The translations under genes and the position numbers were made by a program. This document shows, piece by piece, positions 740-42,395 of a stretch of 47,472 bases of DNA. Location of the stretch: assembly GCA_017445905.1 (NCBI GenBank), contig JAFSRX010000043.1:1-47472 (forward strand), given 5' to 3'. The DNA comes from Eubacterium sp. GTDB taxonomy: Bacteria > Bacillota > Clostridia > Oscillospirales > Acutalibacteraceae. The notes beneath the pieces were generated by a model. That model was not told where the DNA came from, made no database searches, and was given only the letters and a program-made list of their open reading frames with translations. The stretch's first letter is position 1, and each line of letters opens with the position of its first letter.

Positions 740-856
740 TTAGGAATTAGGAATGAGGAGTGAGGAGTTCAGGTTACTCGCTTTGCTCAAACAATTATAA
801 TTGCTGTGCGCAGCACCCGAAATTCCTAACTTCTAACTTCTAACTCCTAATTTTAT
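740..856. repeat. Heptad-arm intergenic element family A (A1)
   Basis: The left arm is four 7-base units (TTAGGAA, TTAGGAA, TGAGGAG, TGAGGAG). The right arm is four partly complementary units (TTCCTAA, CTTCTAA, CTTCTAA, CTCCTAA). Between them lie ACTCGCTTTGCTC, the AT palindrome CAATTATAATTG, and the hairpin GCTG-TGCG-CAGC followed by ACCCGAAA. The element fills the greA-lysS gap and stops just before the lysS ribosome binding site. Confidence 0.75.
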
Positions 857-871
857 TAGAAAGGCAAAACT

Positions 872-2704
872 ATGGCAGGAAAGTTTGAAATAACAAAGCA
901 CAGTGACAGCGAGTTTTCATTTGAATTCATTGTTGATGAAAAGGTTCTCGGAAAGTCACCTGTTTTTGATAAGGAAGATGCTTGCAAGAGAGGCGTTAAG
1001 GCTGTTAAGAAAAACAGCAGAATGAAGGTTCAGAACGCCATTGCAGGTGATGAAGAAAAAACAAACCCTAAGTTCCTTGTTGAAAATTGCGGCGATAAGG
1101 TAAAATATACTCTCTTCCTTCAGACGGGCGCAGTCGCTCTTGAAGGCGAGGCAAACAGCGAGCAGGAGGCTCTCGAAGCTATTGAAGCAATCGGGAATAA
1201 CGCCGCTGCTGCTCAGATGGCTATGGCTGAGGTTGTTCTCTCAGAAAACGAGCAGAAGCAAATCAGAATTGATAAGCTCAAGGCTATGCAGGAGGAGGGC
1301 AAGGATCCCTTTGTTATAACTCTTGCCGAGCAGACCCATCACAGCGATGAAATCAAAGCTAAATTTGATGAGCTTGAAGAAAAGGATGTTGTTATCGCAG
1401 GAAGAATTATGACCTGGCGAGATATGGGCAAGGCAAACTTCATCGATATTCAGGATAGAAACGGAAGAATTCAGGCATATGTTCGTATGAATGATGTTGG
1501 CGAAGAGGTCTTCAAGGCATTCAAAACCTGGGATATTGGCGATATAGTTGAAATAAAGGGCTTTGTTTTCAAAACAAGAACGGGTGAGATTTCCGTTCAT
1601 GCAAAGGAAATAAGACTTATTTCAAAGTCACTTCTTCCTCTTCCCGAAAAATTCCACGGTTTAACAGATACCGACACGAGATACAGAAAACGCTATCTTG
1701 ATATGATAATGAATCCGAATGTTAAGGAAACCTTTATCAAGCGTTCTAAGATAATAACTTCAATAAGAAACTATCTTGATAATCTCGGCTTTATCGAGGT
1801 TGAAACTCCTATTCTTAATCTCATCCCCGGCGGTGCTGCTGCAAGACCGTTTATAACCCACCATAACACTCTTGATATGGATATGTATCTTCGTATCGCA
1901 ACTGAGCTTTATCTTAAAAGGCTTATTGTCGGCGGTATGGAGAGAGTTTATGAAATTGGACGTAACTTCAGAAATGAGGGAATGGATGTTCGCCATAATC
2001 CCGAATTCACCTGCATTGAGCTTTATCAGGCATTTACAGATTACCACGGAATGATGGATATTGCAGAGAATATTATCAGAAATGCAGCAAATGAAGTTTG
2101 CGATAATCTCCACATAACCTTCAACGGAACCGAGATTGACCTCGAAAGTCCGTTTAAGAGATTAACTATGATAGACGCTGTCAAGGAATTCAGCGGAGTT
2201 GATTTTGCTTCCTTTATGAGTGACAACGAAAAGGCTGTTGAAATAGCTAAGGAAAAGGGAATCGAAATTGAGCCAGGCAAAGCAACCTGGGGCGATGTTC
2301 TCAACTCCTTTTTTGAAGAATTTGTTGAAGAAAACCTTATTCAGCCGACATTCATTATTGATTATCCTGTTGAAATCAGTCCGTTAACAAAGAAAAAGCC
2401 CGACTGTCCTGCGCTGACAGAACGTTTTGAGCTCTTCATTCTCGGAGGAGAATACGGAAATGCTTATTCCGAGCTCAACGATCCGATTGACCAGATGGAA
2501 CGCTTTGAAGCTCAGATGAAGTTAAGAGAAGCAGGCGACGATGAGGCTAATATGATTGATAACGATTTCGTAACTGCACTTGAATACGGAATGCCTCCGA
2601 CTGGCGGACTCGGAATCGGAATAGACAGACTGGTTATGCTTTTAACAGACAGCTATTCAATCAGGGACGTTTTACTCTTCCCGACAATAAAACCTATAGA
2701 ATAG
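872..2704 (+). CDS. lysS: Lysyl-tRNA synthetase (class II) with an N-terminal tandem YegP-like extension
   Basis: The enzyme charges tRNA-Lys with lysine. From about residue 120 the protein is a normal bacterial LysRS: an OB-fold anticodon-binding domain (about 155-250) and a class II catalytic core. Motif 2 is visible as ERVYEIGRNFRNEGMD and motif 3 as GGLGIGIDRLVML near the C-terminus. The first ~110 residues are extra. Residues 3-48 (GKFEITKH...ACKRGVKAVKKN) resemble one YegP/DUF1508 repeat, and 66-109 look like a degenerate second one. At 610 residues the protein is about 110 longer than the usual ~490-510. ATG 872 follows GAAAGG. The extension is in frame with no stop or frameshift, so it appears genuine. 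Confidence 0.93.
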   Translation: MAGKFEITKHSDSEFSFEFIVDEKVLGKSPVFDKEDACKRGVKAVKKNSRMKVQNAIAGDEEKTNPKFLVENCGDKVKYTLFLQTGAVALEGEANSEQEALEAIEAIGNNAAAAQMAMAEVVLSENEQKQIRIDKLKAMQEEGKDPFVITLAEQTHHSDEIKAKFDELEEKDVVIAGRIMTWRDMGKANFIDIQDRNGRIQAYVRMNDVGEEVFKAFKTWDIGDIVEIKGFVFKTRTGEISVHAKEIRLISKSLLPLPEKFHGLTDTDTRYRKRYLDMIMNPNVKETFIKRSKIITSIRNYLDNLGFIEVETPILNLIPGGAAARPFITHHNTLDMDMYLRIATELYLKRLIVGGMERVYEIGRNFRNEGMDVRHNPEFTCIELYQAFTDYHGMMDIAENIIRNAANEVCDNLHITFNGTEIDLESPFKRLTMIDAVKEFSGVDFASFMSDNEKAVEIAKEKGIEIEPGKATWGDVLNSFFEEFVEENLIQPTFIIDYPVEISPLTKKKPDCPALTERFELFILGGEYGNAYSELNDPIDQMERFEAQMKLREAGDDEANMIDNDFVTALEYGMPPTGGLGIGIDRLVMLLTDSYSIRDVLLFPTIKPIE

Positions 2705-2720
2705 TTGCGAGTCTTCACAC

Positions 2721-2867
2721 CTTCCCCTTGAGGGGAAGGGGGACCGCTTGCGGTGGATGAGGTGTGTTGCCTTTTGGAGCGTGGTTCATTAATTATTCGC
2801 CGAAAGCATTCAAAACATCAAGCCACCTCATCAGTCACTTCGTGACAGCTTCCCCTCAAGGGGAAGC
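2721..2867. repeat. Palindromic element family B (copy 2, MITE-like)
   Basis: The left end is CTTCCCCTTGAGGGGAAG followed by GGACCGCTTGCGGTGG and ATGAGGTG. The right end is the inverted counterpart: CACCTCAT, then GTCACTTCGTGAC, then CTTCCCCTCAAGGGGAAG. About 58 bases of unrelated sequence lie between. Each end is itself two nested hairpins, so the whole element could fold as a cruciform. It fills the lysS-ilvD gap. No leucine/isoleucine T-box was recognised ahead of ilvD. Confidence 0.7.
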
Positions 2868-2892
2868 TAAATAAGATTAGGAGATTTATATT

Positions 2893-4557
2893 ATGAGATC
2901 AGATTTAATTAAAGAAGGTCCTTCCAGAGCTCCTCACCGTTCACTTCTCAGAGCTCTTGGAATTGATGAACTTGAAATGAAAAGACCATTTGTAGCCGTT
3001 GTTAACTCAAAGAGCGACTACATTCCGGGTCATATGCATCTTGATAAAATTGCCGAGCAAGTTAAAGCCGGAATAAGAAATGCAGGTGGTGTTCCGTTTG
3101 AATTCAACACAATCGGCGTTTGCGACGGAATTGCAATGAACCACAGGGGTATGAAATATTCTCTCTGTTCAAGAGAGCTTATTGCAGATAGTATTGAAGT
3201 TATGCTTACTGCTCATCCGCTTGATGCAATAGTATTTATTCCGAACTGCGATAAAATCGTTCCCGGAATGCTTCTTGCAGCGTGCAGACTTAATCTTCCC
3301 TGTATCTTCATCAGCGGAGGCCCGATGCTTCCCGGAAAAAGCACCGAAACCAAAAATTCAATCGGTCTTTCAGAGCAGTTTGAATATGTCGGCTCAAACG
3401 CAGTTGGCAAAATGAGCGTTGAAAATCTTGAGGCAACCGCATTCACAGCTTGCCCGACCTGCGGATCATGCTCAGGTATGTACACTGCTAACTCAATGAA
3501 CTGCTTAACCGAGTCAATCGGTATGTCGCTTCCGGGATCGGGAACTGTTCCTGCAGTTTATTCAGCTCGTCTTCGTCTTGCTAAGATGGCTGGTGAAAGA
3601 GTTATGGATCTTCTCAAAGAAGATATCAAGCCTTCAGATATTATCACCGAAAAGGCTATTGAAAACGCAATGAGATGTGATATGGCTATTGGTTGTTCAA
3701 CAAATACCATTCTTCACCTCACAGCAATAGCTCATGCAGCAGGTCATGATATAGACCTCAATGACCTCAACGAAATGGGCAACACAACTCCTCAGATTTG
3801 TAAGCTCAATCCTGCATCTTCGGTATTCATCACCGATCTTAACGATGTTGGCGGAATGCAGTCAGTTATTAAGGAGCTTGCAAACGGCGGACTTATTCAT
3901 ACAGATTGCTTAACAGTTAACGGAACTGTTAAAGAGAGAATAACTGCAGCGCGCGAGGCTGACGGCGAAGTTATCAGAAAACTTGATAATCCGTTTTCAA
4001 AGGATGGCGGTATCGCAGTTCTTAAAGGCAATTTAGCCGAAGAAGGAGCTGTTGTTAAGAAGGGCGCAGTTGCTCCCGAAATGATGCAGCACAAGGGTCC
4101 TGCAAAGTGTTATGATTCCGAAGAGGAAGCTATTGCAGCAATAACCTCCGGAAAGATTGTCGAGGGTGACGTTGTTGTTATCCGCTATGAAGGACCTAAG
4201 GGCGGTCCCGGAATGAGAGAAATGCTTTCTCCAACCTCTGCTATTATCGGAATGGGTCTTGGCTCTTCTGTTGCTCTTTTAACAGACGGAAGATTCTCAG
4301 GCGCAACAAGGGGCGCTTCAATCGGCCATGTAAGCCCGGAGGCAGTAGTCGGCGGAACAATCGCTCTTGTTGAAGATGGCGATGAAATTGAAATTGATAT
4401 TCCTGCAAGAGTTCTCAGAGTTAATGTTTCTGATGAAGTTCTTGAGCAGAGGAGAGCTAAGTGGCAGCCAAAACCGCTTGAGCTTACAGGTTATCTTAAG
4501 AGATATGCGCAGCATGTTACATCAGGTTCAAGAGGCGCAGTATTTGAGGATGATTAA
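2893..4557 (+). CDS. ilvD: Dihydroxy-acid dehydratase
   Basis: This iron-sulfur enzyme makes 2-keto acids from 2,3-dihydroxy acids, the third step of valine and isoleucine synthesis. The 554-residue length is typical. Conserved cysteine segments are visible at NCDKIVPGM (C119) and [16 protein letters not shown] (C187, C190, C193). [17 protein letters not shown] near residue 470 is the C-terminal family signature. ATG 2893 follows AGGAG. No other ilv gene is adjacent; the next gene begins three bases after the stop, so it may be co-transcribed with the unrelated envelope genes downstream. Confidence 0.95.
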
Positions 4558-4560
4558 TTA

Positions 4561-5253: not shown

Positions 5254-5255
5254 GC

Positions 5256-6332: not shown

Positions 6333-6356
6333 TATCTTATGAAAAGGAACAGTACT

Positions 6357-7136: not shown

Positions 7137-7217
7137 AGGCTTCTGAAAAGTGCATAATCACGCCATATTATATATTTATTGTAATATTCGTTTTATTTAT
7201 AATATTTCTAGATTAAT

Positions 7218-7252
7218 AAAACCGCCGAGGGCATCGAACCCTCGGCGGTTTT
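7218..7252. terminator. Bidirectional intrinsic terminator
   Basis: AAAACCGCCGAGGG (7218-7231) and CCCTCGGCGGTTTT (7239-7252) form a perfect 14-base stem with a 7-base loop. A-runs and T-runs at either end let it serve both the plus-strand ABC gene and the minus-strand sialidase gene. Confidence 0.9.
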
Positions 7253-7300
7253 GGCGTTTTCAATTTTTTCAGTACGCCTTAATATTTATTCAGTTAGCTT

Positions 7301-8581: not shown

Positions 8582-8621
8582 AATTTTCACTCCTGTTTTA
8601 ATATTTTATCACATTAATATA

Positions 8622-8650
8622 ATTATAACAAATAACTATTGAAAAGTGAA
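8622..8650 (-). promoter_or_regulatory. Probable sialidase promoter (minus strand)
   Basis: Read on the minus strand, TTCACT (8650-8645) and TATAAT (8627-8622) are 17 bases apart, upstream of the sialidase start. The -35 overlaps the plus-strand promoter of the dehydrogenase gene. Confidence 0.4.
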
Positions 8651-8667
8651 GATATTTTTAGTAAAAT
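8639..8667 (+). promoter_or_regulatory. Probable promoter of the alcohol dehydrogenase gene
   Basis: TTGAAA (8639-8644) and TAAAAT (8662-8667) have a 17-base spacer. The strong AGGAGG ribosome binding site and ATG 8701 lie downstream. Confidence 0.5.
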
Positions 8668-8700
8668 ATAACTGATAATTATAGAAAAGGAGGATAAGCG

Positions 8701-9912: not shown

Positions 9913-9915
9913 AAC

Positions 9916-12042: not shown

Positions 12043-12957
12043 ATGGAGTTTGTTCATAAGAGTGTTCTGTTTGATGAAGCAATAGATTCACTTAATATAG
12101 ATAAAAATAAAATAATTCTCGACGGAACAGCGGGAGGCGGAGGTCATTCAAAGGAAATCTCAAAAAGAGCAAAGCTTCTTATCGCTGTTGACCAGGACCC
12201 CGACGCTATCGAAGTTTTAAATGAAAGACTCGGAAATCTTAACAATGTCAGAATCGTTCAGAACAACTTTGAAAACATAAAAGATATTCTCAGCGAACTC
12301 GGTATTGAAAAAATCGACGGTGTTCTTCTCGACCTCGGAGTAAGCTCGTTTCAGCTTGATACTGCTGAGAGAGGTTTTTCGTATCACTCAGACGCCCCGC
12401 TCGATATGAGAATGAGCAAAAGCGGACTGAGCGCAAAAGACGTTGTTAACACCTATAGCAAAGAGGAACTCATTGATATTCTCTATAAATACGGTGAAGA
12501 AAAGTTTGCGCCGAGAATAGCTCAGCATATTGTTGAAGAAAGAAAAATAAATCCGATTGAAACAACAGCTCAACTTGTTGAGATAATTAAAAAATCATAT
12601 CCGAAAAAGGCGATGAGAGATTCTCATCCTGCAAGAAAAACCTTTCAGGCAATCAGAATAGAGGTCAATGCTGAACTGGACAGGCTTTCAAAAACGCTCG
12701 ATGACGCGCTTGAATGTTTGAATAGCGGCGGAAGGATTTCGGTTATAACCTTCCATTCACTTGAGGATAGAATTGTTAAAGATCGATTTGCAAAATGGGA
12801 AAACCCCTGCACCTGTCCGAAAGAATTTCCTGTATGTGTATGCGGGAAAAAGCCACTCGGAAAAAGGCCGTTTAAATCAAAGGCACCGAGCGAAGCGGAG
12901 CTTAAAGAAAATCCAAGAGCAAGAAGCTCAAGGCTAAGATGCTTTGAAAAAATTTAG
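12043..12957 (+). CDS. rsmH: 16S rRNA m4C1402 methyltransferase RsmH (MraW)
   Basis: RsmH methylates N4 of C1402 in the ribosomal P site using S-adenosylmethionine. The SAM-binding loop [11 protein letters not shown] is at residues 26-36. [17 protein letters not shown] and the cysteine-rich [15 protein letters not shown] are family signatures. The 304-residue length is normal. It starts two bases after mraZ, so translation is probably coupled. Its stop codon TAG lies within the first heptad of the repeat arm that fills the gap to ftsL. Confidence 0.95.
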
Positions 12958-13078
12958 AATTAAGAATTTAGAATGAAGAATTGTGGTTACTCGCTTACGC
13001 TCAAACAATTAATCATAATCGGGTGCGGGTGACCCGCCCAAAATTCTTAATTATTAATTCTTAACTATTAATTCTATA
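12952..13078. repeat. Heptad-arm intergenic element family A (A2)
   Basis: Left arm units: TTTAGAA, TTAAGAA, TTTAGAA, TGAAGAA. Right arm units: AATTCTT, AATTATT, AATTCTT, AACTATT. The core has ACTCGCTTACGCTC, an AT-rich centre and the hairpin GCGGGT-GA-CCCGC. The rsmH stop codon is inside the left arm, and the right arm ends at the ftsL ribosome binding site. Confidence 0.75.
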
Positions 13079-13624: not shown

Positions 13625-13669
13625 ACAGTATTATTAAAGAGAGTTCAAATGAACTCTCTAAAACTGTTT
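13623..13669 (+). other. Intra-operon stem-loop after ftsL
   Basis: AGAGAGTTCA-AA-TGAACTCTCT (13638-13659) is enclosed by AAACAGT/ACTGTTT. No strong T-tract follows, so it may be a weak terminator or an mRNA-stabilising or processing hairpin. Confidence 0.5.
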
Positions 13670-13713
13670 ATATATGGGTTGTTCGAGCAAAACGAGTGAC
13701 TGGTTTGCTCCAC

Positions 13714-13847
13714 TTGCTAAAAGGGAGATGTCACGAAGTGACAGAGGGGATGGTCGGTTCCTTTAGAATATCTTGCAGATAGGTGCTCTTAAACTTAAGT
13801 GACCATCCCTCCACCGCAAGCGGTCCTCCTCCCTTTGATAAGGGAGG
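13714..13847. repeat. Palindromic element family B (copy 3, MITE-like) inside the dcw cluster
   Basis: The left half contains AAAGGGAG, the hairpin TGTCACGAAGTGACA and GAGGGGATGGTC. The right half is its inverted counterpart: GACCATCCCTCC, CACCGCAAGCGGTCC, then CTCCCTTTGATAAGGGAG. About 45 bases lie between. It occupies most of the gap between ftsL and the PBP gene. Confidence 0.7.
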
Positions 13848-13883
13848 CAAATAGGTTTGATTAATTGAAAAAGGGGTGATAAC

Positions 13884-16103
13884 ATGGCAAATGAATTCAA
13901 AAAGGGTATGCTCAAAAGAATACTCATTTTAGCTATGGTTATCGTCTTTTTATTTTGTGCTGACGGAGTAAGAGTTTTCTATCTTCAAACAGTTCGCTCA
14001 AACGAACTTGCAAGCAAGGCTCAGTCCCAACAGCTTTCAGATACCGAGGTTTCGGCAATGCGCGGAACTATCTATGACAGCGAGGGAAATGTTCTCGCTC
14101 AGTCGGCAACGGTATGGAATGTTTTTGTTGACCCAGGCAATATCAACGATGAAAAAGAGCGCTCTCTTGTTGTTGACGCTCTTTCTGAAAAGCTGAAATT
14201 CGATGATGAGCAAAAAGAAGAGCTTATCGAAAAAACTAAAAAGAAAACAAGATATGCCGTTGTTGCAAAGAAAATCGAAAACGATATTAAAGAAGATATC
14301 GCCGCATTTTCCGCTGAAAACAAGCTCGGCGATGTTATCGGATTTGAACAGACAACAAGGCGTTATTATCCCCATAATTCTCTTGCCTCATCGGTTATTG
14401 GCTTTACAGGAAATGATAACCAGGGCTTAACGGGAATTGAAAGCTATTATGAAAAGGATTTAAGAGGAACAAACGGAAGAATTGTAACCGTTAAGGATGC
14501 AAACGCAAATAAACTTCCGACTGACTATGAAACTTCAATCGATGCCGTTGACGGAAATTCTCTCGTTTTAACAATTAATCAGACAATTCAGTACTACCTT
14601 GAAAAAGGTTTGAGAACAACAATGGAGGAATATAAGGCAAAGGGCGCATACGGAGTTGTTATGGACTGTAATACAGGCGCAGTTCTCGCAATGAGCTCAA
14701 TGCCCGATTTCGACTGCAACGACCCATACAAAATAACATACTCAAAGACTAAAAAAGAGTTAAAGAAAATAAAAAAGAAAAAGGAAAAAAGCGAGGCGCA
14801 GAGTGCAGCGATTCAGAATCAGTGGAGAAACTTTACTGTATCCGATACATATGTTCCGGGTTCTGTATTCAAAACCTTCATGGCAAGCGCAGCGCTAGAA
14901 GAAAACGTTGTAAATCTTGACACAACATATACCTGCACAGGCGCAATTCAGGTTCAGGATTACAGAATGAAGTGCCACTATCATCCCGGTCACGGAACTC
15001 AGACACTTACTCAGGGCCTTGAAAATTCCTGTAACCCGTTTTTCATAACAATAGGACAGAAGCTTGGCGTTCATAACTATTTTAAGTATTTCGATGCTTT
15101 CGGCTTCACTCAGAAAACGGGAATTGATATCCCCGGTGAAGCAATTTCGCAATACTATAAAGAGAACCAATACGGAATTGTTGAGCTTTCCTCAGCTTCC
15201 TTCGGACAGACGAACTCTTTAACTCCCATACAGGTTGCCTGCGGAATCAGCGCAATAGCAAACGGCGGAACACTTCTTAAACCTTATATCGTTTCTGAAA
15301 TCAAGGATGCAAACGGAAATACCGTTAAGAAAACTCAGAAAAAAGAAGTAAGAAGAGTTATCAGCGAGGAAACCGCTCAGAAGGTCAGAACAATGATGAA
15401 AGCCGTTGTTGATGAAGGAACGGGTAAAAACGGTTATGTTGCAGGCTACAGAGTCGGCGGAAAAACCGGAACTTCAACAAAACTCGGCGAATCAAAAGAG
15501 GGCGAGAGAACAAAGTATATTGTATCCTTTGCCGCAATAGCTCCCGTTGATGAACCGAGAATAGCAATGGTTATACTTATGGATGAGCCAAATGAAGACC
15601 TCGGAGGCGGCGCGCTTTGCGCTCCGATAGCAGCTCAGGTTATTGAGCAGGCAATGCCTGTTTTAAATGTTGAGCCGAAATACGATGAAGATGAAACTAA
15701 AAATCTTTCAATCCAGACCCCGAATGTTATTGGCTTAAGCGTTTCTAATGCTCAGAGCACTATCGAGTCAAAGGGACTCAGATGTAAAATAGTCGGCGAG
15801 GGCAAAAAGGTATTAAGTCAGTCACCCGGTTCCGGTAACAGCATTCCTTCAAAGGGCGTTGTTGTTATCTATACCGAAAACGGCAAAAAAGAAAAGGTTA
15901 AGGTACCCGATTTTACAGGGCTTACTGTCAGCGAGGCTAATTCAGCCGCAGCAGATGCAAACCTTAATATTGAAATCAGCGGAAATAACCTCTCTTCATC
16001 AACTGTTGTTGCCTACAGGCAGTCAACGGATAAGGGAACAAAGGTCGATATCGGCTCGGTTATAACCGTTTCGTTTAAAAATACAAACTCAGTGTTGGAT
16101 TAA
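13884..16103 (+). CDS. spoVD: Class B penicillin-binding protein with two PASTA domains (FtsI/SpoVD type)
   Basis: This transpeptidase cross-links septal peptidoglycan (division FtsI/PBP2B role, or spore cortex SpoVD role). A membrane anchor is at 10-35, followed by a dimerisation domain and the transpeptidase domain. The active-site motifs are SVFK (327-330, nucleophile Ser327), SCN (382-384) and KTGT (527-530). Two PASTA domains end the protein (about 609-667 and 672-733). A Lys/Glu-rich insertion at about 286-305 precedes the active site. ATG 13884 follows GGGGTGAT. The cluster has only this class B PBP gene, so it may carry the division function; the PASTA tail resembles SpoVD and PBP2X. 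Confidence 0.93.
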   Translation: MANEFKKGMLKRILILAMVIVFLFCADGVRVFYLQTVRSNELASKAQSQQLSDTEVSAMRGTIYDSEGNVLAQSATVWNVFVDPGNINDEKERSLVVDALSEKLKFDDEQKEELIEKTKKKTRYAVVAKKIENDIKEDIAAFSAENKLGDVIGFEQTTRRYYPHNSLASSVIGFTGNDNQGLTGIESYYEKDLRGTNGRIVTVKDANANKLPTDYETSIDAVDGNSLVLTINQTIQYYLEKGLRTTMEEYKAKGAYGVVMDCNTGAVLAMSSMPDFDCNDPYKITYSKTKKELKKIKKKKEKSEAQSAAIQNQWRNFTVSDTYVPGSVFKTFMASAALEENVVNLDTTYTCTGAIQVQDYRMKCHYHPGHGTQTLTQGLENSCNPFFITIGQKLGVHNYFKYFDAFGFTQKTGIDIPGEAISQYYKENQYGIVELSSASFGQTNSLTPIQVACGISAIANGGTLLKPYIVSEIKDANGNTVKKTQKKEVRRVISEETAQKVRTMMKAVVDEGTGKNGYVAGYRVGGKTGTSTKLGESKEGERTKYIVSFAAIAPVDEPRIAMVILMDEPNEDLGGGALCAPIAAQVIEQAMPVLNVEPKYDEDETKNLSIQTPNVIGLSVSNAQSTIESKGLRCKIVGEGKKVLSQSPGSGNSIPSKGVVVIYTENGKKEKVKVPDFTGLTVSEANSAAADANLNIEISGNNLSSSTVVAYRQSTDKGTKVDIGSVITVSFKNTNSVLD

Positions 16104-16132: not shown

Positions 16133-17560
16133 ATGAAGCTTAAAGAAATACTCAAGGGTATTGACGTTAGAAATGAATATGCTGATAAAGAGGTGATTAA
16201 TGTTACCTCGGATTCACGCCTTGTTAAAGAGGGCTTCCTTTTTGTGTGTATCAAGGGCGCGTCGTTTGACGGGCATAATGTTGCCGAAGAAATGCTGAAC
16301 AAAGGCGCAGTTGCAGTTGTCTGTGAAAGAGATTTAGGACTTAAAAATCAAATACTTGTTGAAAATTCAAGAGAGGTTTATTCTCCGATTTGCGCCAACT
16401 TCTTCAACAATCCCGCTAATTCCCTTAAACTAATCGGACTGACGGGAACTAACGGAAAAACAACAACCACCTTTATTATCAAACAGATTCTTGAAAATCT
16501 CGGAAAAAAGGTTGGACTAATTGGAACTGTTCAGAATATGGTGGGGGAGGAAATATATCCAGCCCACTATACAACTCCCGACCCCTATGAGCTTCAGTCA
16601 CTGTTCGGAAAAATGGTTGACGCAGGTTGCGAATACTGCGTTATGGAGGTTTCTTCACAGGCGCTAGCACAGGGAAGGGTTGCAGGAATAAGATTTACCC
16701 TTGCAGCATTTACAAATCTTACTCAGGATCATCTTGACTATCATAAAACCTGGGAAAACTATTTCTTATCAAAAAGAATGCTTTTTGAAAACTGCGACAT
16801 AGCACTGACAAATTTAGACGATAAAAACGGTCTCAAAATTGTTGAGGGGCTTGATTGCAAGGTTAAAACATATTCTGTTGATAACGTAAACTCTGACTAT
16901 ACAGCGAAAAATGTTTGCTTCTCCTCTGATGGAGTTAAATATGAGCTTGTTACCGATAGAATAGGAAGAGTTCAGTGCCATATCCCCGGACGTTTCAGTG
17001 TATATAATTCGCTCTGCGCCGTATCTGTTGCAATAACTCTCGGCTTTGATTTTGAGGAGACCTTATTAGCAATAGCAAAGTGCAGCGGAGTTAAGGGAAG
17101 AATTGAAGTTGTTCCTACTGATACAAATTACACAGTAATTATCGACTATGCTCATTCCCCCGACGGACTTGAAAATATCATAACCTCTCTCAGAGAGATA
17201 TCAAAGGGAAGAGTTGTAACTCTTTTCGGATGCGGAGGCGACAGAGATAAAACTAAACGTCCTTTAATGGGCGAAATAGCATCAAGGCTCTCAGACTTCT
17301 GTATTGTTACCTCGGATAATCCGAGAAGTGAAAATCCGAGCAAAATAATTAATGATATTCTCGAGGGAATGAATAATTCAAAAACGCCCATCAAGGTTAT
17401 TGAAAACAGAAAAGAGGCAATTAACTGGGCGCTTGATAACGCAAAAGAAAATGATATCATTCTTCTTGCAGGAAAAGGCCACGAAACCTATCAGATATTA
17501 AATGAAGGAACAATTCATTTTGATGAAAGGGAAGTTGTTGCGGAACACTTTGAGAATTAA
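16133..17560 (+). CDS. murE: UDP-MurNAc-tripeptide synthetase (meso-DAP-adding)
   Basis: MurE adds the third amino acid to UDP-MurNAc-L-Ala-D-Glu in the cytoplasm, using ATP. The P-loop is TGTNGKTT at about 104-111. DNPR at 395-398 is the motif associated with meso-diaminopimelate specificity, so the wall is predicted to contain DAP. The 475-residue length is normal. GGAGG lies before ATG 16133. The usual next gene, murF, is absent; a family A element and mraY follow. The stop codon overlaps the left repeat arm. Confidence 0.95.
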   Translation: MKLKEILKGIDVRNEYADKEVINVTSDSRLVKEGFLFVCIKGASFDGHNVAEEMLNKGAVAVVCERDLGLKNQILVENSREVYSPICANFFNNPANSLKLIGLTGTNGKTTTTFIIKQILENLGKKVGLIGTVQNMVGEEIYPAHYTTPDPYELQSLFGKMVDAGCEYCVMEVSSQALAQGRVAGIRFTLAAFTNLTQDHLDYHKTWENYFLSKRMLFENCDIALTNLDDKNGLKIVEGLDCKVKTYSVDNVNSDYTAKNVCFSSDGVKYELVTDRIGRVQCHIPGRFSVYNSLCAVSVAITLGFDFEETLLAIAKCSGVKGRIEVVPTDTNYTVIIDYAHSPDGLENIITSLREISKGRVVTLFGCGGDRDKTKRPLMGEIASRLSDFCIVTSDNPRSENPSKIINDILEGMNNSKTPIKVIENRKEAINWALDNAKENDIILLAGKGHETYQILNEGTIHFDEREVVAEHFEN

Positions 17561-17663
17561 TTACGAGTTACGAATTACGAATTTCGGGTGCTGCGCACGG
17601 CTATTATATAATTGTCGCTTGCGACCCTAAACTCCTCATTCCTCACTCCTAACTCCTAACTAA
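17556..17663. repeat. Heptad-arm intergenic element family A (A3)
   Basis: Left arm units: TTACGAG, TTACGAA, TTACGAA. Right arm units: CTCCTCA, TTCCTCA, CTCCTAA, CTCCTAA. The core order is reversed relative to A1: CGGGTGCTGCGCAC first, then TATTATATAATTG, then the hairpin GTCGC-TT-GCGAC. The two arms pair poorly here; the right arm resembles the A1 heptads, so the copy may be a mosaic. Confidence 0.7.
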
Positions 17664-18739: not shown

Positions 18740-18856
18740 TAATTGAAAATTGAAAATTGAGAATTGAAAAGTTTGGTTTCTCGCTTCGCTCGGTCAATTA
18801 TATAATTGCCGTCTGCAAGACCCTAAATTTTCCATTTTCCATTATCCATTATTTAA
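18740..18856. repeat. Heptad-arm intergenic element family A (A4)
   Basis: Left arm units: TTGAAAA, TTGAAAA, TTGAGAA, TTGAAAA. Right arm units: TTTTCCA, TTTTCCA, TTATCCA. The core has TCTCGCTTCGCTCGG, the palindrome CAATTATATAATTG and a short hairpin GTCTGCAAGAC. Every right-arm unit differs from the complement of the left arm at the same position, as if each arm had been homogenised on its own. Confidence 0.75.
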
Positions 18857-20117: not shown

Positions 20118-20200
20118 TTAGGGCATAGTGCATAGTTGCGCGCTTCACGTTACGCGTTGCGCGTTCTCGGGTGGACGCTGTCCACACCTGATAATATAAT
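20118..20200. repeat. Intergenic element related to family A (A5)
   Basis: A short arm contains GCATAGT repeats (GGCATAGTGCATAGTT). It is followed by GC-rich GCGCGCTTCACG/ACGCGTTGCGCG, the hairpin GGTGGAC-GCT-GTCCACACC, and TGATAATATAATT before the murG ribosome binding site. The same GCATAGT heptads occur at 40889-40922. Confidence 0.55.
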
Positions 20201-20214: not shown

Positions 20215-21348
20215 ATGAAATTTTTGTTTGCAACAGGCGGAACAGCAGGACATATTAATCCTGCTCTCGCATCAGCGCAGTACATAAGGGAAAATAATCC
20301 CGATTCAGAGATTATGTTCATCGGAACAGCTGACCATATGGAAGCAAGACTTGTTCCTGCGGCAGGCTTTGAATTTAAAACGATTGAAATAAACGGTTTC
20401 AGACGTTCGCTTTCCCCAAGTGCAATTATCTATAATGTTAAAACTGTTATAAAGCTTCTCAAATCCGAAAAAGAGAGCAAAAGAATTATTAAAGAATTTA
20501 GTCCCGACGTTGTTATCGGTTTCGGCGGATATGTTTCGGGGCCCGTTCTTGATGAAGCGGTTAAGCTCGGCATTCCGAGTTGCATCCACGAACAAAACGC
20601 ATATCCCGGAATAACCAATAAACAGCTTGCTAAAAAAGTTGATAGAGTTATGCTTACTGTTGAGGATGCAAAAAAGCATCTTGAATATAAAAACGAGCCT
20701 GTTTTAACAGGTCTTCCCGTTAGGGGAGAAATCCTCAGGAAAGACAGGGCAGAGGCAAGAAAGGAACTCGGCATTCCCGAGGATGCAATGCTTGTTTTAT
20801 CCTTTGGCGGATCGCTTGGAGCAGCTCCTCTCAATGAGGCGATGTTTGATATAATTCTTTCCCACAGCGAGCAAAACGCAGTTTATCATATCCACTCCGT
20901 TGGAACAAACGGAAAAGATTATCTTGACAAATTTGAGGAAAAGGGTTTTGAAAAAGTAGGCGAAAATGTTTTAAGAAAAGGCTGCTGTGAAGTAAGACTT
21001 TATATTGATAATATGGATAGCTGTATGGCTGCGGCAGACCTCGTTGTCGGAAGAGCGGGAGCCTCCTCACTTTCAGAAATCGAGGCAATGGGCAAAGCCT
21101 CCATTCTTATTCCATCGCCATATGTTGCAGAAAATCATCAGTTCCATAATGCAATGGCACTTGTTAACAGAAACGCTGCAAGAATAATTGAAGAAAAAGA
21201 TTTATCCTCAGAGAGCCTCGGCAAAATGATGGATGAACTCCTTTCAGATAAAGAAACTCTTTTTGAAATTCAGAAAAACGCAAAGGATATGGCAATCCTA
21301 GATTCAAGAGAAAAAATTGCAGAAATCATCCTATCGTTAGTTAGCTGA
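20215..21348 (+). CDS. murG: UDP-GlcNAc:lipid I N-acetylglucosaminyltransferase MurG
   Basis: MurG turns lipid I into lipid II at the cytoplasmic membrane face. The GT-B glycosyltransferase has 377 residues. The acceptor-side glycine loop GGTAGHINP is at 8-16, and LSFGGSLGAAPLN and VGRAGASSLSEI mark the UDP-GlcNAc-binding half. AAAGGA precedes ATG 20215. The usual murC is not adjacent; murA follows after a short repeat. Confidence 0.96.
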   Translation: MKFLFATGGTAGHINPALASAQYIRENNPDSEIMFIGTADHMEARLVPAAGFEFKTIEINGFRRSLSPSAIIYNVKTVIKLLKSEKESKRIIKEFSPDVVIGFGGYVSGPVLDEAVKLGIPSCIHEQNAYPGITNKQLAKKVDRVMLTVEDAKKHLEYKNEPVLTGLPVRGEILRKDRAEARKELGIPEDAMLVLSFGGSLGAAPLNEAMFDIILSHSEQNAVYHIHSVGTNGKDYLDKFEEKGFEKVGENVLRKGCCEVRLYIDNMDSCMAAADLVVGRAGASSLSEIEAMGKASILIPSPYVAENHQFHNAMALVNRNAARIIEEKDLSSESLGKMMDELLSDKETLFEIQKNAKDMAILDSREKIAEIILSLVS

Positions 21349-21412
21349 TAATATAATCGGAGCAAAGCGACCCGAAATTTTGCACTTTGCATTTTGCATT
21401 TTGCACTAAAAA
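21346..21412. repeat. Family A element with one heptad arm (A6)
   Basis: GATAATATAATCGG and GCAAAGCGACCCGAAA are followed by four heptads (TTTTGCA, CTTTGCA, TTTTGCA, TTTTGCA). The left arm is missing or has been lost. It fills the murG-murA gap. Confidence 0.65.
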
Positions 21413-32416: not shown

Positions 32417-32417
32417 G

Positions 32418-34573: not shown

Positions 34574-34607
34574 TTTAAATATTTATACATACTTATAATT
34601 TACTATA

Positions 34608-34636
34608 TTGACATTTTTCTATGTTTTATTTATGAT
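34608..34636 (+). promoter_or_regulatory. Promoter of the xylulokinase/isomerase operon
   Basis: TTGACA (34608-34613), 17-base spacer, TATGAT (34631-34636), about 33 bases before the predicted RNA start to ATG region of the kinase gene. Confidence 0.65.
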
Positions 34637-34675
34637 TGATTTTGAGAGAATGTTATCAAAAAGCGAAGTGAAAAG

Positions 34676-36058: not shown

Positions 36059-36062
36059 AATT

Positions 36063-37541: not shown

Positions 37542-37585
37542 TTATTAATTATGAATTGAGGGTTGCTGCGCTCCGATTATAGTGA
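37542..37585. repeat. Family A remnant (A8)
   Basis: TTATTAATTATGAATTGAGGG with TGCTGCGCTCCGATTATA is a left arm and a partial core of family A. The remaining gap up to the mannosidase gene is AT-rich; TTGAAA at 37603-37608 has no convincing -10 partner. Confidence 0.4.
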
Positions 37586-37679
37586 TTATTCTAAAAAACA
37601 TATTGAAATATAGTATTTTAATATTTATTTAACTATGATATTTTATATAAAACAATAAAAAATAAGGCAGGTAAATGCT

Positions 37680-40600
37680 ATGGGAAAGAAAAAGGTTTAT
37701 ACCGTTGCAACTTCACATCTTGATACTATATGGTCATGGGATTTTGAAACAACAGTCAGCACGTATATCTATAAAACACTTGTTGATAATTTTGCGCTGT
37801 TTAAAAAATATCCGACCTATACTTTTTCCTTTGAAGGCTCATACCGTTATGAGCTTATGCAGGAATACTATCCTGAGCTTTTTGAGGAGCTTAAAAAGTA
37901 TGTTGAAGAGGGAAGATGGAATGTAACGGGCTCTGCTTTTGAAAACGGCGATGTTAACTGCCCTTCACCTGAAGCACTTTTCAGAAATATTTTAATCGGT
38001 AATACTTATTTTTATGAAACCTTCGGCAAGCGCTCCTGCGATATTTTCCTTCCCGACTGTTTCGGCTTTGGATGGGCGCTTCCTGCTATTGCTCATCACG
38101 CTCACCTTATGGGCTTTACTACTCAAAAGCTCGGATGGGGCGGAGCATATGGCGTTCCGTTTGATATTGGTAAGTGGTATGGCGTTGACGGCAATTTCAT
38201 TTATGCCTCAACTAATCCCCACGATTATTATTTCACCTTAACAAAGCTTCGTGACTGGGATTTTGTTACCGATAAACTGAAGAAGAATGAGGAATATTCT
38301 TTTGACTGGACCTATCTTTTCCACGGTATCGGCGACAGGGGCGGATCTCCTGAAGAGGCGAGCGTTAAGTTTGTTGAAGAAGAGATTAAAAAGAATGACT
38401 CCTCCGATATTGAGGTTGTTGCTGCCAAAGCAGACCAGATATTCAGAGATATTGAAAACGAGCTTCCCGATGAGGTTAAGGATAAGCTGCCAACATGGAA
38501 CACTGAGCTTGTTATGAGAAATCACGGCGTCGGAGGTTATACCTCAAGAGCTATCGGAAAGCGCTGGAATGCAAGAGCTCAGGAGCTTGCCGATATTGCC
38601 GAGAGAACTTCTCTTGAGGCTGAGTATTTTTCGGCTTCAACATATAATGAAAGTGTTCTTGAAAAGAGCTGGAAGAGAATTATTGCTCATCAGTTCCATG
38701 ATGATACTCCCGGTACTTCTGTTCAGAGAGCATACAGACGTTCTTGGAACGACTACGCAATGAGCATGAATCAGTTCTCGGGTGAAATTGAAGCATCTCT
38801 TGCCGGAATGAGTAAACTAATGAAAAGTGATTTCTGCATCGGAACTCCGATTCTTGTTTCAAATTCTGTTGAAGCTAAGAGAAAGGGCGCAGTTATAATA
38901 AAGCTCAGAGGAATTGAAACTCCCCACGTTCGCGTTTTCAACGATAAGGGTAGGGAGGTTAAATCCCAGGTTATTTCTGATATTGACGGCGTTAAAGAAA
39001 TTCTCTTTATTGCCGAGGTTGATTCTCTGGGACTTCGTGTTTTCGATGTTCGCCCATCGGATAAGCCCTGTGCACTCCCAAGTGCATTAACCGTAACCGA
39101 GAGAGGCATGGAAAACCAGAAATACATTGTTTCTCTCAATGCAAGGGGAAATATAACCTCAATTATTGATAAAGAGGATGACGAAAGAGAGCTTCTTGAA
39201 GCTCCGATTGTTCTCGGTTTGTTTAACTATACAGGCTCAAAGGACTGGCCCGCATGGGAAATGAACTATGACGAGGCGAACAAAGAGCCCGACAGAATTC
39301 CCGAAATCGTATCCGTTAAGGTTGCTGAAACAGGACCTGCAAGAGTTGCTATCGAGGTTAAGCAAAAGGATAAAAAGAGCGAGTTTACAACCTATATTTC
39401 ACTCACCGACTCAGGAAAAACAGTTGATGTTTTCAACGAAATTGAATGGCAGTCGATGAGAACGCTTTGTAAAAACCGTTTTGCTTTATCTGCTTCAAAC
39501 GATAAGGCAACCTTCGACCTCGGACTCGGCGCAATTCAGAGAGAGAATATGAATGAAACTCTCTTTGAAGTTCCTGCTCAGAAGTGGGCTGATATAACCG
39601 ACAAGAGCGGTGAATTCGGAATTTCAATTTTCTCTGATTGCAAATACGGTTGGGATAAATATAACGATAATACCCTTCGTTTAACTGCAATACATACTCC
39701 GAAAAAGAACTATCGAATTGACTCAATGCAGTCAATGATGGATTTGGGACTCAACAGATATTCCTATGCAATTTTCTCGCATAAGGGTAATGTTGGAGAA
39801 GAAACTCAGCTTGAAGCTCGTTTGTTTACCTCTCCGATGACTGCTGTTGCTTTTGATAAGCACCAGGGTGCGCTTAAATCGAATTATTCCTTTGGTAATG
39901 TAAGCACAAATGATGTTATTATAAGAGCATTGAAGAAGGCACACCATAAGGATAACGGTGAATATATTGTTCGTTTCAATGAGGGAAGCAATAAAAAAGT
40001 AAAGGGTTTCACCTTTACACTCGGCGAAGGAATTGAGAGTGCGAGAGAGATTTGGGCAAGCGAAGAAGATAGAGGCGAAGCCAAAGTTGAAAATGGAAAA
40101 CTCATTTGCGATTTCCAACCTTATGAAGTAAAGTCATTTGCCTTTACACTTAAAGTGCCAAATGTCAAGGCTAAGCCAAATGAATCAAGTCCCGTTGAAC
40201 TTGAATATAACGATGAAAACAAAGCTCTTCCTAAAGAGCTTGTTCCCGAAAAAATAAATGTTTTCTCTGCTGAGTTTAAACTGGGCGGAAAAGCATTCAT
40301 CGGTGACGGTAATAAATCAGTTAAGATTAAAAAAGATGCCAACAAGCTGATGCTTCTCTGTGCTGCAAGTGAGGACGGAAAAATTGAATTTGCCGTTGAC
40401 GGCGAGAAGGTTATAAAAGAAGTAAATGCCGTTGATAAGCCTTTTGCAGGCTGGGATTTATATGATTTTAAAGAAACCGCTTTTATTAAAAACGGTCATC
40501 TCGGCTTTGAGGCAACGCACTCGCTTGATGAAAACGGCAAGGTTGCTTTTGCAAAGGGTCTTTATTACTGGGTTGTTTCCCTCGATGTTAAAAAGGGCAG

Positions 40601-40886
40601 CGAGGTTGTTATCCCTGAGGGACTTATTGTTATTGCAGCAAGCGAGGTTAAAAATAGCGGCGCTTCTCTTGTTTCACCGCTTTATGATGAAGTTGAAAAC
40701 AACAGACCCTGCACCTTTAAGAAGAATTTGAAAGAGCAGTGGTGGTATCTTACTTCAAAGCTACGCCACAATATCAATGATAAAGACGATTATTTCCGCC
40801 ATAATAATAACGGAAAGAACGGAAAGAGAATTGAGCAGTCGGGCAAGAGAGCTGTTACAAGGACGATTGAAACAGTAGGACATTAA
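37680..40886 (+). CDS. Alpha-mannosidase, GH38 (second of two)
   Basis: The 1068-residue paralogue of the enzyme at 26795 keeps the same layout: His13 and Asp15 in SHLDTIW, nucleophile Asp126 in IFLPDCFGFGWALP, and AHQFHDDTPGTS. A C-terminal beta-rich region follows. No signal peptide is seen. GGCAGG precedes ATG 37680. The two proteins are clearly homologous end to end but differ throughout, so duplication is old or they were acquired separately. The C-terminal ~45 residues are basic and rich in Asn/Lys/Arg. The fucosidase gene follows after a 50-base gap with a repeat remnant, probably in the same transcript. Confidence 0.92.
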   Translation: MGKKKVYTVATSHLDTIWSWDFETTVSTYIYKTLVDNFALFKKYPTYTFSFEGSYRYELMQEYYPELFEELKKYVEEGRWNVTGSAFENGDVNCPSPEALFRNILIGNTYFYETFGKRSCDIFLPDCFGFGWALPAIAHHAHLMGFTTQKLGWGGAYGVPFDIGKWYGVDGNFIYASTNPHDYYFTLTKLRDWDFVTDKLKKNEEYSFDWTYLFHGIGDRGGSPEEASVKFVEEEIKKNDSSDIEVVAAKADQIFRDIENELPDEVKDKLPTWNTELVMRNHGVGGYTSRAIGKRWNARAQELADIAERTSLEAEYFSASTYNESVLEKSWKRIIAHQFHDDTPGTSVQRAYRRSWNDYAMSMNQFSGEIEASLAGMSKLMKSDFCIGTPILVSNSVEAKRKGAVIIKLRGIETPHVRVFNDKGREVKSQVISDIDGVKEILFIAEVDSLGLRVFDVRPSDKPCALPSALTVTERGMENQKYIVSLNARGNITSIIDKEDDERELLEAPIVLGLFNYTGSKDWPAWEMNYDEANKEPDRIPEIVSVKVAETGPARVAIEVKQKDKKSEFTTYISLTDSGKTVDVFNEIEWQSMRTLCKNRFALSASNDKATFDLGLGAIQRENMNETLFEVPAQKWADITDKSGEFGISIFSDCKYGWDKYNDNTLRLTAIHTPKKNYRIDSMQSMMDLGLNRYSYAIFSHKGNVGEETQLEARLFTSPMTAVAFDKHQGALKSNYSFGNVSTNDVIIRALKKAHHKDNGEYIVRFNEGSNKKVKGFTFTLGEGIESAREIWASEEDRGEAKVENGKLICDFQPYEVKSFAFTLKVPNVKAKPNESSPVELEYNDENKALPKELVPEKINVFSAEFKLGGKAFIGDGNKSVKIKKDANKLMLLCAASEDGKIEFAVDGEKVIKEVNAVDKPFAGWDLYDFKETAFIKNGHLGFEATHSLDENGKVAFAKGLYYWVVSLDVKKGSEVVIPEGLIVIAASEVKNSGASLVSPLYDEVENNRPCTFKKNLKEQWWYLTSKLRHNINDKDDYFRHNNNGKNGKRIEQSGKRAVTRTIETVGH

Positions 40887-40888
40887 TT

Positions 40889-40922
40889 ATGTGCTTAGTG
40901 AATAAGGCATAGTGCATAGTTA
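40889..40922. repeat. Family A remnant with GCATAGT heptads (A9)
   Basis: TTAGTGAATAAGGCATAGTG followed by CATAGTT repeats the heptads of the element at 20118-20200. Only one arm is present. Confidence 0.45.
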
Positions 40923-40936
40923 TTTGGTGGAAAGAA

Positions 40937-42316
40937 ATGAAGATTAAACTTGATGAAAACTGGACAACTAAAAATAACGGATATGCGCTGAATGACAGCG
41001 AGGTTGAGCGCTATATCTCTGTTCTTCCATCTCCTGCTCAATTTGAGCATGCAAAAAAGCCTTTTTACTGTTTTTTGCATTTCGGAATGAATACCTCAAC
41101 AGGAAGGGAATGGGGAAACGGAACTGAAACAGTTGATGATTTCAAGATTGTAAGAATCGACGCTGCTCAGTGGATAAAAACGGTGAAAGCCTCCGGAGCA
41201 ACCGGGGTTATTCTAACCTGTAAACACCACGATGGCTTCTGCCTTTGGAACACCGGAACAACTGATTTTAATGTTATGAAAAGCGCATATGCCGAGGATG
41301 TTGTTAAAAAAGTATCTGAGGAATGCAAAAAACAGGGGATTGATTTCGGAGTTTATCTCTCCCCCTGGGATATGCACGAAAAAACCTACGCAACGCCTTT
41401 ATATAACGACTTTTTCTGCCGTCAGCTGACTGAACTGCTGACAAATTACGGTGATATTTTTGAGGTTTGGTTCGACGGTGCAAAGGGCGCCGAGGCTAAG
41501 GAATTTGACTATGACTGGGAGAGGTATTATAAGATAGTCAGAACGCTTCAGCCAAACGCAAATATTGCAATCTGCGGTCCGGATATCCGTTGGGTCGGCA
41601 ATGAGGCGGGTCAGGCAAGAGAAAATGAATACTGCGTTGTTCCTGAGTTTTTAACAAGGGCTGAAATAGTTTCTAAAAGCTCTCAGCATAGTGAGCAGGA
41701 TGCAAAAAGCCTGCAGAAAATAACCTCAAAGGATGAGGACTTAGGCTCGAGAAAAGTTCTTAAAAAGAATGCATATCTTACCTGGTATCCTGCCGAGGTT
41801 GATGTTTCAATAAGAAACGGATGGTTTGCCTCGGATGAAACAGCTAAGAAAATAAAGAGCGCAAAGAAGCTTTTTGATATCTATCTGAATTCAGTCGGCA
41901 ACAACAGTTTTCTTCTTTTAAATGTTCCGCCGACGGACAGGGGAGTTATCTCGAAAAAAGAAACAAAGATTTTAAAATCCCTCGGCAATATGATAAAAGA
42001 AATAACCGAAAAGCCTGTTTATGAAAAGGATTTCGGCGAATTTAAGGAAACAGATGGATATATTGAATTTCGCTTTGATTCTCCGAAAAAGCTAAAATAC
42101 TGCGTTTTAAAAGAGAATATCAAAAAAGGACAGCGAGTTGAAAAATTTGATTTATTCCTTCTCAAAGAAAACGGAAAATATAAGAAGGCTTATAAAGGAA
42201 GCGTTATCGGAATGAGAAAGATAATCAGATTAAAGGGAAAAGCATCAGGAGCTTTATTAGTTATTCGCCAATCAAGAGGAACTCCTAATCTTTCTCATAT
42301 AGGATTCTATGAATAA
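40937..42316 (+). CDS. Alpha-L-fucosidase, GH29
   Basis: This retaining enzyme removes alpha-linked L-fucose. The 459-residue protein has a TIM barrel with KPFYCFLHFGMNT, the HHDGFCLW motif at 97-104 and the nucleophile Asp180 in EVWFDGAKG. A C-terminal beta-sandwich follows. No signal peptide is seen. GGAAAG precedes ATG 40937. The C-terminal LEAD is normal; the acid/base residue varies in GH29 and was not assigned. It sits directly after the second mannosidase gene, and its stop codon lies at the edge of the terminator. Confidence 0.9.
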   Translation: MKIKLDENWTTKNNGYALNDSEVERYISVLPSPAQFEHAKKPFYCFLHFGMNTSTGREWGNGTETVDDFKIVRIDAAQWIKTVKASGATGVILTCKHHDGFCLWNTGTTDFNVMKSAYAEDVVKKVSEECKKQGIDFGVYLSPWDMHEKTYATPLYNDFFCRQLTELLTNYGDIFEVWFDGAKGAEAKEFDYDWERYYKIVRTLQPNANIAICGPDIRWVGNEAGQARENEYCVVPEFLTRAEIVSKSSQHSEQDAKSLQKITSKDEDLGSRKVLKKNAYLTWYPAEVDVSIRNGWFASDETAKKIKSAKKLFDIYLNSVGNNSFLLLNVPPTDRGVISKKETKILKSLGNMIKEITEKPVYEKDFGEFKETDGYIEFRFDSPKKLKYCVLKENIKKGQRVEKFDLFLLKENGKYKKAYKGSVIGMRKIIRLKGKASGALLVIRQSRGTPNLSHIGFYE

Positions 42317-42338
42317 AAGCAGGCGCAAGCCTGCTTTT
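42315..42338 (+). terminator. Terminator after the fucosidase gene
   Basis: AAAAGCAGGC-GCAA-GCCTGCTTTT is a 10-base stem with a GNRA tetraloop; its first bases overlap the fucosidase stop codon. Confidence 0.88.
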
Positions 42339-42395
42339 AATAATTATGAATGATGAATTATGAATTTTGGGTCGCAAGCGACGATTAAATGATTA
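42338..42395. repeat. Family A element, partial (A10)
   Basis: Heptads TTATGAA, TGATGAA, TTATGAA are followed by TTTTGGGTCGCAAGCGACGATTAAAT, which holds the hairpin GTCGC-AA-GCGAC seen in A3. No right arm is present. The remaining gap to the sigma gene contains TTGACA at 42418-42423 without a good -10. Confidence 0.6.

Follow-up and report, generated by a model that had tools for sequence, protein, structure and literature searches.

Gaps between genes on a 47,472-nt contig of Eubacterium sp. (assembly GCA_017445905.1, contig JAFSRX010000043.1) contain short elements with arms of tandem seven-base repeats (heptads), and the question this locus raises is what these elements are and how they came to be there. 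The whole stretch, called the window here, is contig C21 in a 75-contig draft genome of 2.27 Mb, referred to as G000; other genomes and single loci are given G and L numbers where they must be told apart. In the genus, G000 included, the same arms and hairpins enclose a single gene, that of the S23/IVP four-helix-bundle protein (PF05635/TIGR02436), a family familiar mainly from the intervening sequences of 23S rRNA. The window elements are very probably internally deleted derivatives of such S23 elements, comparable to miniature inverted-repeat transposable elements (MITEs), some being single or recombined halves, and it is likely that these MITE-like derivatives were mobilised in trans. This reading is preferred to a free-standing repeat family because the heptads form the termini of a mobile element that also exists with a gene.

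A complete element starts with 3-5 left heptads, followed by a small hairpin with a GGGT- or GGTT-type base, an AT-rich centre (for instance AATTATATAATT), another small hairpin, which ends in ACCC, and the right heptads. One of these occupies the rsmH-ftsL gap (12951..13075; left arm 12951-12982, right arm 13042-13075). Its part 12951-13012 matched the right end of the G000 S23 element L123 (87%, 62 nt, minus strand) and its part 13011-13073 the left end of the same element (87%, 63 nt, minus strand). Because each part matches one end of L123, 12951-13073 is read as two L123 ends joined, the gene alone being missing. If a MITE is short, without an open reading frame (ORF), and has inverted ends in common with a gene-bearing element of the same genome, 12951-13073 is one by comparison with both L123 ends, and the other window elements are so by their ends only. 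Eight of the ten window elements matched ends of S23 elements at E<=1e-5, compared with one of 12 control gaps, which was the gap orthologous to the L093 insertion. Heptads by themselves add to these scores; for the elements at 12951 and 738 the matches reach into the hairpins. No S23-type ORF was found inside any window element.

An earlier reading made from the letters alone (the sequence-only reading) had named ten places with tandem heptads. Tandem Repeats Finder (TRF) detected heptads at all ten, of poor quality at 20118 (70% matches) and 40889 (69%). A strict lag test was failed by the gaps at 20118, 37542 and 40887, and 37535 passed once the end of the flanking gene was counted in. In the 25 window gaps (4,044 nt) there were 11 lag-7 runs, whereas 200 dinucleotide shuffles gave 0.1 on average and never more than 2. 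Of all remaining periods between 4 and 15, 14 alone was enriched (5 runs) and the others gave 0 or 1, while the window genes contained one lag-7 run. The heptads named in these gaps were thus confirmed, in excess of shuffled intergenic sequence, and heptad arms were also found elsewhere in the genome: 262,274 unmasked bases of G000 (12% of the genome; three of 20 stretches were fully masked and were dropped before counting) contained 31 period-7 clusters and 1 period-8 cluster, and 13 clusters each of periods 6 and 9, which are expected in coding DNA. Because of the 31 clusters against 1, the heptad pattern is regarded as genome-wide, with about 269 period-7 clusters by extrapolation from this 12%. 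Not all of the 31 are intergenic, as at least one (14766-14791) is within a gene.

The proposal of one non-coding family, mostly placed between co-directional genes, was supported, and heptads were indeed nearly uniform within an arm and different between elements. The two-armed layout held for four elements only, the remaining ones being four single halves and two remnants, and the facing arms were not always complementary. In these gene-less elements the two arms are often poorly matched; the complete element in the murE-mraY gap (17559..17663) is chimeric, with AATTACG heptads on the left and CTCCTAA/CTCCTCA on the right. The complete element of the greA-lysS gap (738..853) has left heptads at 738-768, half cores GGTTACTCGCTTTGCTC and GCTGTGCGCAGCACCC around AATTATAATT, and right heptads at ~820-852; it matched the right ends of two S23 elements, L128 (90%, 61 nt) and the own-genome L123 (78%, 68 nt). 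The fourth, in the mraY-ftsW gap (18740..18853), has AATTGAA arms and the centre CAATTATATAATTG, and matched the S23 element L129 at its right end (87%, 60 nt). Complementary, stem-forming termini occurred in the window only in these four, and their predicted RNA folds were better than those of 200 shuffles (z -4.57, -3.12, -2.24 and -2.25, the first being that of 738..853), 0, 0, 4 and 7 of the shuffles folding as well. The three halves that were tested folded no better than shuffles.

The single halves all lie on the plus strand. A left half at 20118..20200 has GTTGCGC-type heptads, the hairpin GGGTGGACGCTGTCCACACC and TGATAATATAATT, and matched the S23 element L095 at its left end (78%, 79 nt); a right half at 21346..21408 consists of TGATAATATAATCGGAGCAAAGCGACCC followed by TTTTGCA heptads (91% over 34 nt to S23 element L130). 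Two further left halves resemble the S23 element L106: 37537..37579, with TTAATTA/TTATGAA heptads and GAGGGTTGCTGCGCTCCGATTATA (80% over 45 nt to its left end), and 42342..42383, with AATTATG heptads and a TTTTGGGTCGCAAGCGACG hairpin (94% over 31 nt). The remnants are two to three TTAAGAA heptads at 136..163 (TRF 100% match at period 7, no match to S23 ends at E<=1e-5) and weak GCATAGT heptads at 40889..40920 (TRF 69%; best S23-end match E 0.004, none at 1e-5). At gathering scores Rfam recognised tRNA only in the window and no family for the heptad elements. The view that they belong to no named family holds in this sense, but not for the element as a whole, the repeats being the termini of a mobile element whose gene-bearing form can be identified.

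The gene-bearing form was surveyed in 60 genomes of the genus, G000 included, and PF05635 matches were found in 32 of them. The 77 rows obtained correspond to 70 places (five rows were not fetched and two row pairs are each one place). G000 has five PF05635 genes, two of them inside heptad elements (L104 and L123). The layout of L096 is that of the window elements with a gene at the centre: heptads, GGTTACTCGCTTTGCTCGGACAATTATAA, the gene, GGGTGTGGGCGTAGCCCACCC and heptads. Of the 67 places kept after three with less than 100 nt on one side had been dropped, 38 had a strict heptad array within 250 nt of the gene on one side or more, and 23 had such arrays on both. In the pairing comparison, which used 69 of the 70 places, the two arms of one place were complementary in at least 14 of 18 nt at 36 of the 69, compared with 27 of 207 crossed pairs. 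On a tree of 64 of the 70 proteins (six were left out for length or internal stops) the heptad label changed 8 times, compared with 21.7 times in shuffles, none of 500 being as low. Structures have been solved for the S23 family (2gsc, 2rld). In one clade (L107-L162), largely free of heptads, many genes have upstream ATTTCAY or ACTTCAC units spaced by small hairpins, which may represent another kind of end within this element class. Half elements, right or left, also stand in tandem beside the S23 elements L095, L096, L104 and L136, or in the ftsL-pbp gap of G007.

The presence of the gene also follows that of the repeats among genomes. An AATTNNG heptad pattern was found in 16 of the 60 genomes, including G000, and all 16 carry S23 (Fisher 4e-6, kinship not corrected). 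A reversed-pattern control also matched nine of the same genomes and the S23-positive G010; since other heptads fit this control, the AATTNNG count marks heptad arrays rather than one motif. The core motif occurred in 14 genomes, 13 of them with S23, and the control gave 0 matches.

For a comparison across phyla, contigs were scanned with an alignment of nine S23 proteins from heptad-type loci of the genus (eight with strict arrays, L099 by eye), and the best 80 of at least 587 confirmed relatives were analysed; the scan itself is blind to heptads. These 80 loci come from Clostridia, Selenomonadales, Treponema, Bacteroidetes, Proteobacteria, candidate phyla, Acidobacteria, Omnitrophota, Planctomycetes and one archaeal bin. 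Autocorrelation around the S23 genes peaked at 7, 14 and 21. Upstream of the gene 34 loci had a strict lag-7 array and downstream 31, with 21 loci having both, and a period-7 array lay within 130 nt on at least one side at 43, whereas 15 of 160 far 700-nt windows of the same loci contained a strict lag-7 array. Periods 4-6 and 9-13 gave 0-2 loci per side, period 8 gave 7 and 6, and period 14 gave 37 and 27. The two arms of one locus were complementary in at least 14 of their best 18 nt at 60 of the 80 loci, compared with 22 of 240 crossed pairs, 6 of 151 comparisons with distant DNA from that locus and 2 of 80 shuffles. A strict array within 130 nt or pairing of at least 15 of 18 nt was present at 61 of the 80 loci. 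The elements had a median length of 494 nt (420-606, 43 elements). None of the 80 loci had an rRNA match, and Rfam gave only a tRNA and an FMN riboswitch, each lying ~1 kb away from the gene. At 52 loci S23 is read in sense with its two neighbours and at 1 it is antisense to both, the remaining 27 being mixed or without a near neighbour; this bias is most readily explained by selection that favours read-through expression of S23 and disfavours polar effects.

With one S23 protein as query, 29 of 72,556 plasmid records were matched, most often from Nostoc (9), Calothrix (4) and Riemerella (4). The ten best of these 29 records, all cyanobacterial, were examined and had strict arrays on both sides in eight cases, L273 and L280, and likewise L277 and L278, being near duplicates; L275 showed no pairing, and L276 had period 8 on one side and pairing of 16/18. 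In L271 (Anabaena sp. 90 plasmid) the S23 gene lies between cas6 and cas4, and in L276 (Picosynechococcus plasmid) between cas10 and a cmr3-family gene. A phage origin was rejected, as one S23 protein used as query had no match among 50,697 phage records at E<=1e-8.

In a first alternative, a route through RNA, the element would leave or enter transcripts and a reverse transcriptase would copy it back, with S23 acting like its relative Avd of diversity-generating retroelements. The sense bias of 52 to 1 and the positions near stop codons fit such a route, and S23 matches the Avd profile at E 2.5e-11, below the cut-off of that model. Two weak S23 matches, G042:C41 and G068:C115, adjoin reverse transcriptases and are likely Avd of diversity-generating retroelements themselves. 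Reverse transcriptase (PF00078) was found in 16 of the 60 genomes, only 4 of which are among the 16 heptad-positive ones; there was no match in the other 12, including the element-rich G000, G002, G007 and G064, with the proviso that drafts may miss genes. Reverse transcriptase was therefore rejected as the partner, and the RNA route as a whole is considered unlikely.

A second candidate was the REP-associated tyrosine transposase (RAYT), of the Y1/HUH type. The elements would then resemble REPINs, the inverted half-core hairpins with their GGGT-like base being paired repetitive extragenic palindromes (REPs) and the heptads passengers. The half cores are indeed small inverted hairpins, RAYT-like genes occur in 25 of the 60 genomes, and NCBIfam labels this RAYT type REP_Tyr_transpos, below its cut-off. 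In L063 (G007:C21) a RAYT-like Y1 gene lies between inverted heptads, one side passing the strict test and a short right arm being seen by eye, and the end of another RAYT-like ORF of G007 runs directly into a right half element. RAYT was at first favoured as the general mobiliser through L063. When 30 loci of 67 RAYT rows were surveyed, however, a strict array was present on one side at 2 and on both sides at none, and the idea was rejected, the other 29 loci having no strict arms on both sides. No window element (0/10) matched the flanks of these 30 loci at E<=1e-5. RAYT is present in only 10 of the 16 heptad-positive genomes (Fisher 0.075), and G049, G051, G059 and G063 had no match in either Y1 search, although drafts may miss genes. 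G000 had no match to the heptad-flanked RAYT type at E<=0.001; of its two other Y1 genes of ~250 aa, L002 has no heptads and L001 (252 aa) only a short heptad array ~340 nt upstream. A RAYT-driven origin is thus quite improbable. L001 is flanked by TAGGTACAGGGGACGGTTCTC repeats, a different REP-like family, and the reading frame of the L063 RAYT itself contains a GTAGGGAGCGGCGACCCCGACGCTCC hairpin.

That S23 elements move is indicated by copies and by empty sites. At two sites on one contig of G066, L138 and L139 are 94% identical over 524 nt, from the first heptad to within ~10 nt of the last, and their flanks are unrelated (hisB-hisA and rseP-ispG, gene names from translations). The mobile unit begins with the first heptad and stops near the last one. 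The two copies have different hairpins, GGGCGGGACACCCGCACCC and GGGTGGGCTCTGCCCACACCC, the changes between them preserving the stem. At hisB-hisA, 11 of 14 readable genomes had no element, the stop and start codons overlapping in nine; arms were present in G066 and G064 and a half element in G007. Nostoc sp. ATCC 53789 has two plasmids with the same operon and S23 in different gaps, which provides a clean pair of an empty site, GGTTCTAGGTTATG, and an occupied one, GGTTCTA-insert-TAGTTATG. This one clean pair suggests that the insertion falls inside a stop codon, perhaps with a duplication of TA.

Orthologous gaps of the window were compared in congeners, greA having been searched in 40 relatives, 36 of which gave a match (one of 30 greA loci, L043, was unreadable). 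The presence or absence of the elements, which the sequence-only reading had proposed to compare, did differ: the greA-lysS gap was without arms in 17 of 19 readable congeners, and had an element at the same place in G000 and its nearest congeners G007 and G002, with different arms and hairpins in each. In the syntenic region of G007, the murE-mraY element has kept the left heptad type and has another right arm, the mraY-ftsW element has the same heptad type and a longer left array than in G000, and the gap orthologous to 37537 has a right half directly after the end of a RAYT-like ORF. In G002, which has a syntenic region too, two gaps have elements with the same arms and 94% identity over 95 nt, and heptads surround an S23/IVP gene in the ortholog of the gap at window positions 8591-8700. 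Because of these comparisons we consider that arms lengthen, are exchanged and are copied together with the core. The concerted evolution within arms suggested earlier is thus seen in the homogenised arms, but whole-arm replacement and exchange of half elements occur as well. The possibility that arms are taken from the target at each insertion is disfavoured, the same arms being found in the two G002 gaps and at the unrelated L138 and L139 sites. It is very unlikely that the elements are immobile old stem-loops kept by a function in operon mRNA processing or stability, with heptad numbers changing by slippage alone, even though the same gap is occupied in G000, G007 and G002, the G007 mraY-ftsW array is longer and complete elements fold better than shuffles, given the two G066 copies with unrelated flanks, the nearly identical elements in different G002 gaps, the clean empty sites (greA-lysS, hisB-hisA and the Nostoc plasmids) and nested insertions. 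Other palindromic repeat families are present at window positions 2705-2892 and 13625-13883 (CCTTCCCCTTGAGGGG... and ...GATGTCACGAAGTGACA...CCTCCCTTTGATAAGGGAGG), and sequence like these was found nested inside heptad elements (L005:4250 and the lysS-ilvD gap of G007).

Taken more widely, the S23 elements may form a class of mobile elements across many phyla and plasmids, with S23/IVP as the sole protein, ends of tandem heptads and mini-hairpins which conserve period seven and self-complementarity rather than sequence, and insertion at or near stop codons in operons. The elements would be mobile without a classical recombinase of their own, and the rRNA intervening sequences (IVSs) would be members which landed in rRNA. 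We put the chance of this full proposal at somewhat less than even. A mechanism in which S23 serves the gene-less derivatives in trans and host enzymes do the strand work is offered tentatively as a whole; it is preferred because S23 is the only gene in the unit and tracks the arms, and neither of the enzymes tested (RAYT, reverse transcriptase) does. The S23 protein would recognise the arm-plus-hairpin ends as single-stranded nucleic acid and hold or anneal the two ends of the element, and copying would be done by host replication and repair enzymes. Gene-less derivatives could be served by S23 in trans. Slippage would keep the heptads within one arm alike, and after loss of the gene the arms would drift or recombine with other halves and cease to match. 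A copying step acting on whole active elements is suggested because arms match in gene-bearing elements and poorly in gene-less ones.

Several points weigh against the S23 reading or limit it. Strict arms on both sides were found at only the 23 of 67 genus loci given above, 26 of 28 rows of the heptad-free clade had no heptad arms, and neither test gave arms at 19 of the 80 cross-phylum loci, a set biased towards the heptad type by the choice of heptad-type S23 genes for the query proteins. In G055 a core site is present without an S23 match. Heptad arms can bound other cargo, as the RAYT gene of L063 lies between inverted heptads and the other RAYT of G007 abuts a right half. Strict left arms began between -12 and +15 nt from the end of a sense ORF in 16 of 32 cases of the 80-locus set, a count with no control. 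No target site duplication was established, pairs besides Nostoc not being clean, and no new insertion event was observed in the sequences compared. To our knowledge, no catalytic activity of S23 is known. Two steps of the mechanism are inferred: the fold-back copying between facing arms which would keep both arms of an active element alike, suggested by the matching arms, and the long stem which transcripts would form, probably cut by RNase III by analogy with the rRNA intervening sequences. Finally, the S23p of the rRNA insertion of Coxiella is described as probably not made and decaying (PMC4990558).

Of the known systems, REPINs are short non-autonomous pairs of inverted hairpins in gaps. 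The heptad elements are like the REPIN/RAYT system in having short inverted hairpin pairs in gaps, but their consistent partner is S23, long heptad arms lie outside the hairpins, and the arms vary by element. Diversity-generating retroelements possess a related four-helix-bundle protein, Avd, whereas most heptad-positive genomes had no reverse transcriptase match. Heterocystous cyanobacteria contain heptanucleotide short tandemly repeated repetitive sequences (STRRs), and the kinship in kind with these repeats that the sequence-only reading had pointed to gained weight from the Nostoc and Calothrix plasmid S23 genes with such arms. Window elements are tandem heptanucleotides in intergenic DNA as STRRs are, a comparison of layout and not of identity with published STRR sequences. 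Heptanucleotides of Calothrix are mentioned together with the GGGAATC repeats of Xanthomonas (186 and 183 sets, with 70 and 75 cases of convergent pairs; PMC4692102). Both are likewise tandem heptads, often facing, but in that text they are treated as simple repeats or quadruplex motifs, generally not tied to mobile elements, and S23 or a four-helix protein is not mentioned in it. The TAACTGA repeats of Beggiatoaceae are also intergenic tandem heptamers, reported from cyanobacteria and Bacteroidetes as well, but they have one heptad sequence and are nearly always direct, not facing (PMC4679880).

The Coxiella IVS paper was the only literature found to join heptad arms to S23 genes, which is weak evidence that no other exists, since most subscription journals and all preprints lie outside the search. 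As described in that paper (PMC4990558), the S23p-encoding IVS of 23S rRNA in Coxiella and Leptospira has, like the elements here, an S23 four-helix-bundle ORF and stem-forming terminal inverted repeats, and it is 428-444 nt long compared with the median of 494 nt (420-606). In Coxiella, three tandem GACAGAT heptamers, strain-variable in copy number, precede the ORF. We link the two because of the common protein, size and stem and these published heptamers. They differ in that the IVS lies in 23S rRNA and the elements here between protein genes (0 of 80 loci with an rRNA match), and in that the Coxiella heptamers are described upstream of the ORF only. The function and origin of the S23p IVS are called unclear there more than 25 years after discovery, and its mobility a hypothesis. 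Seven-base repeats between genes which resemble gutted copies of a small mobile element provide a handle on how the rRNA S23 insertions move. Should they be of the same kind, the many recent copies, empty sites and gene-less derivatives could be used for probing the mechanism, and part of the heptanucleotide repeats in cyanobacteria and other phyla could be explained. Ends which keep a period and mutual complementarity while the sequence changes by element would, if true, represent an unusual form of end recognition. In G000, where the elements lie inside a cell-division operon, they may create processing sites in its mRNA.

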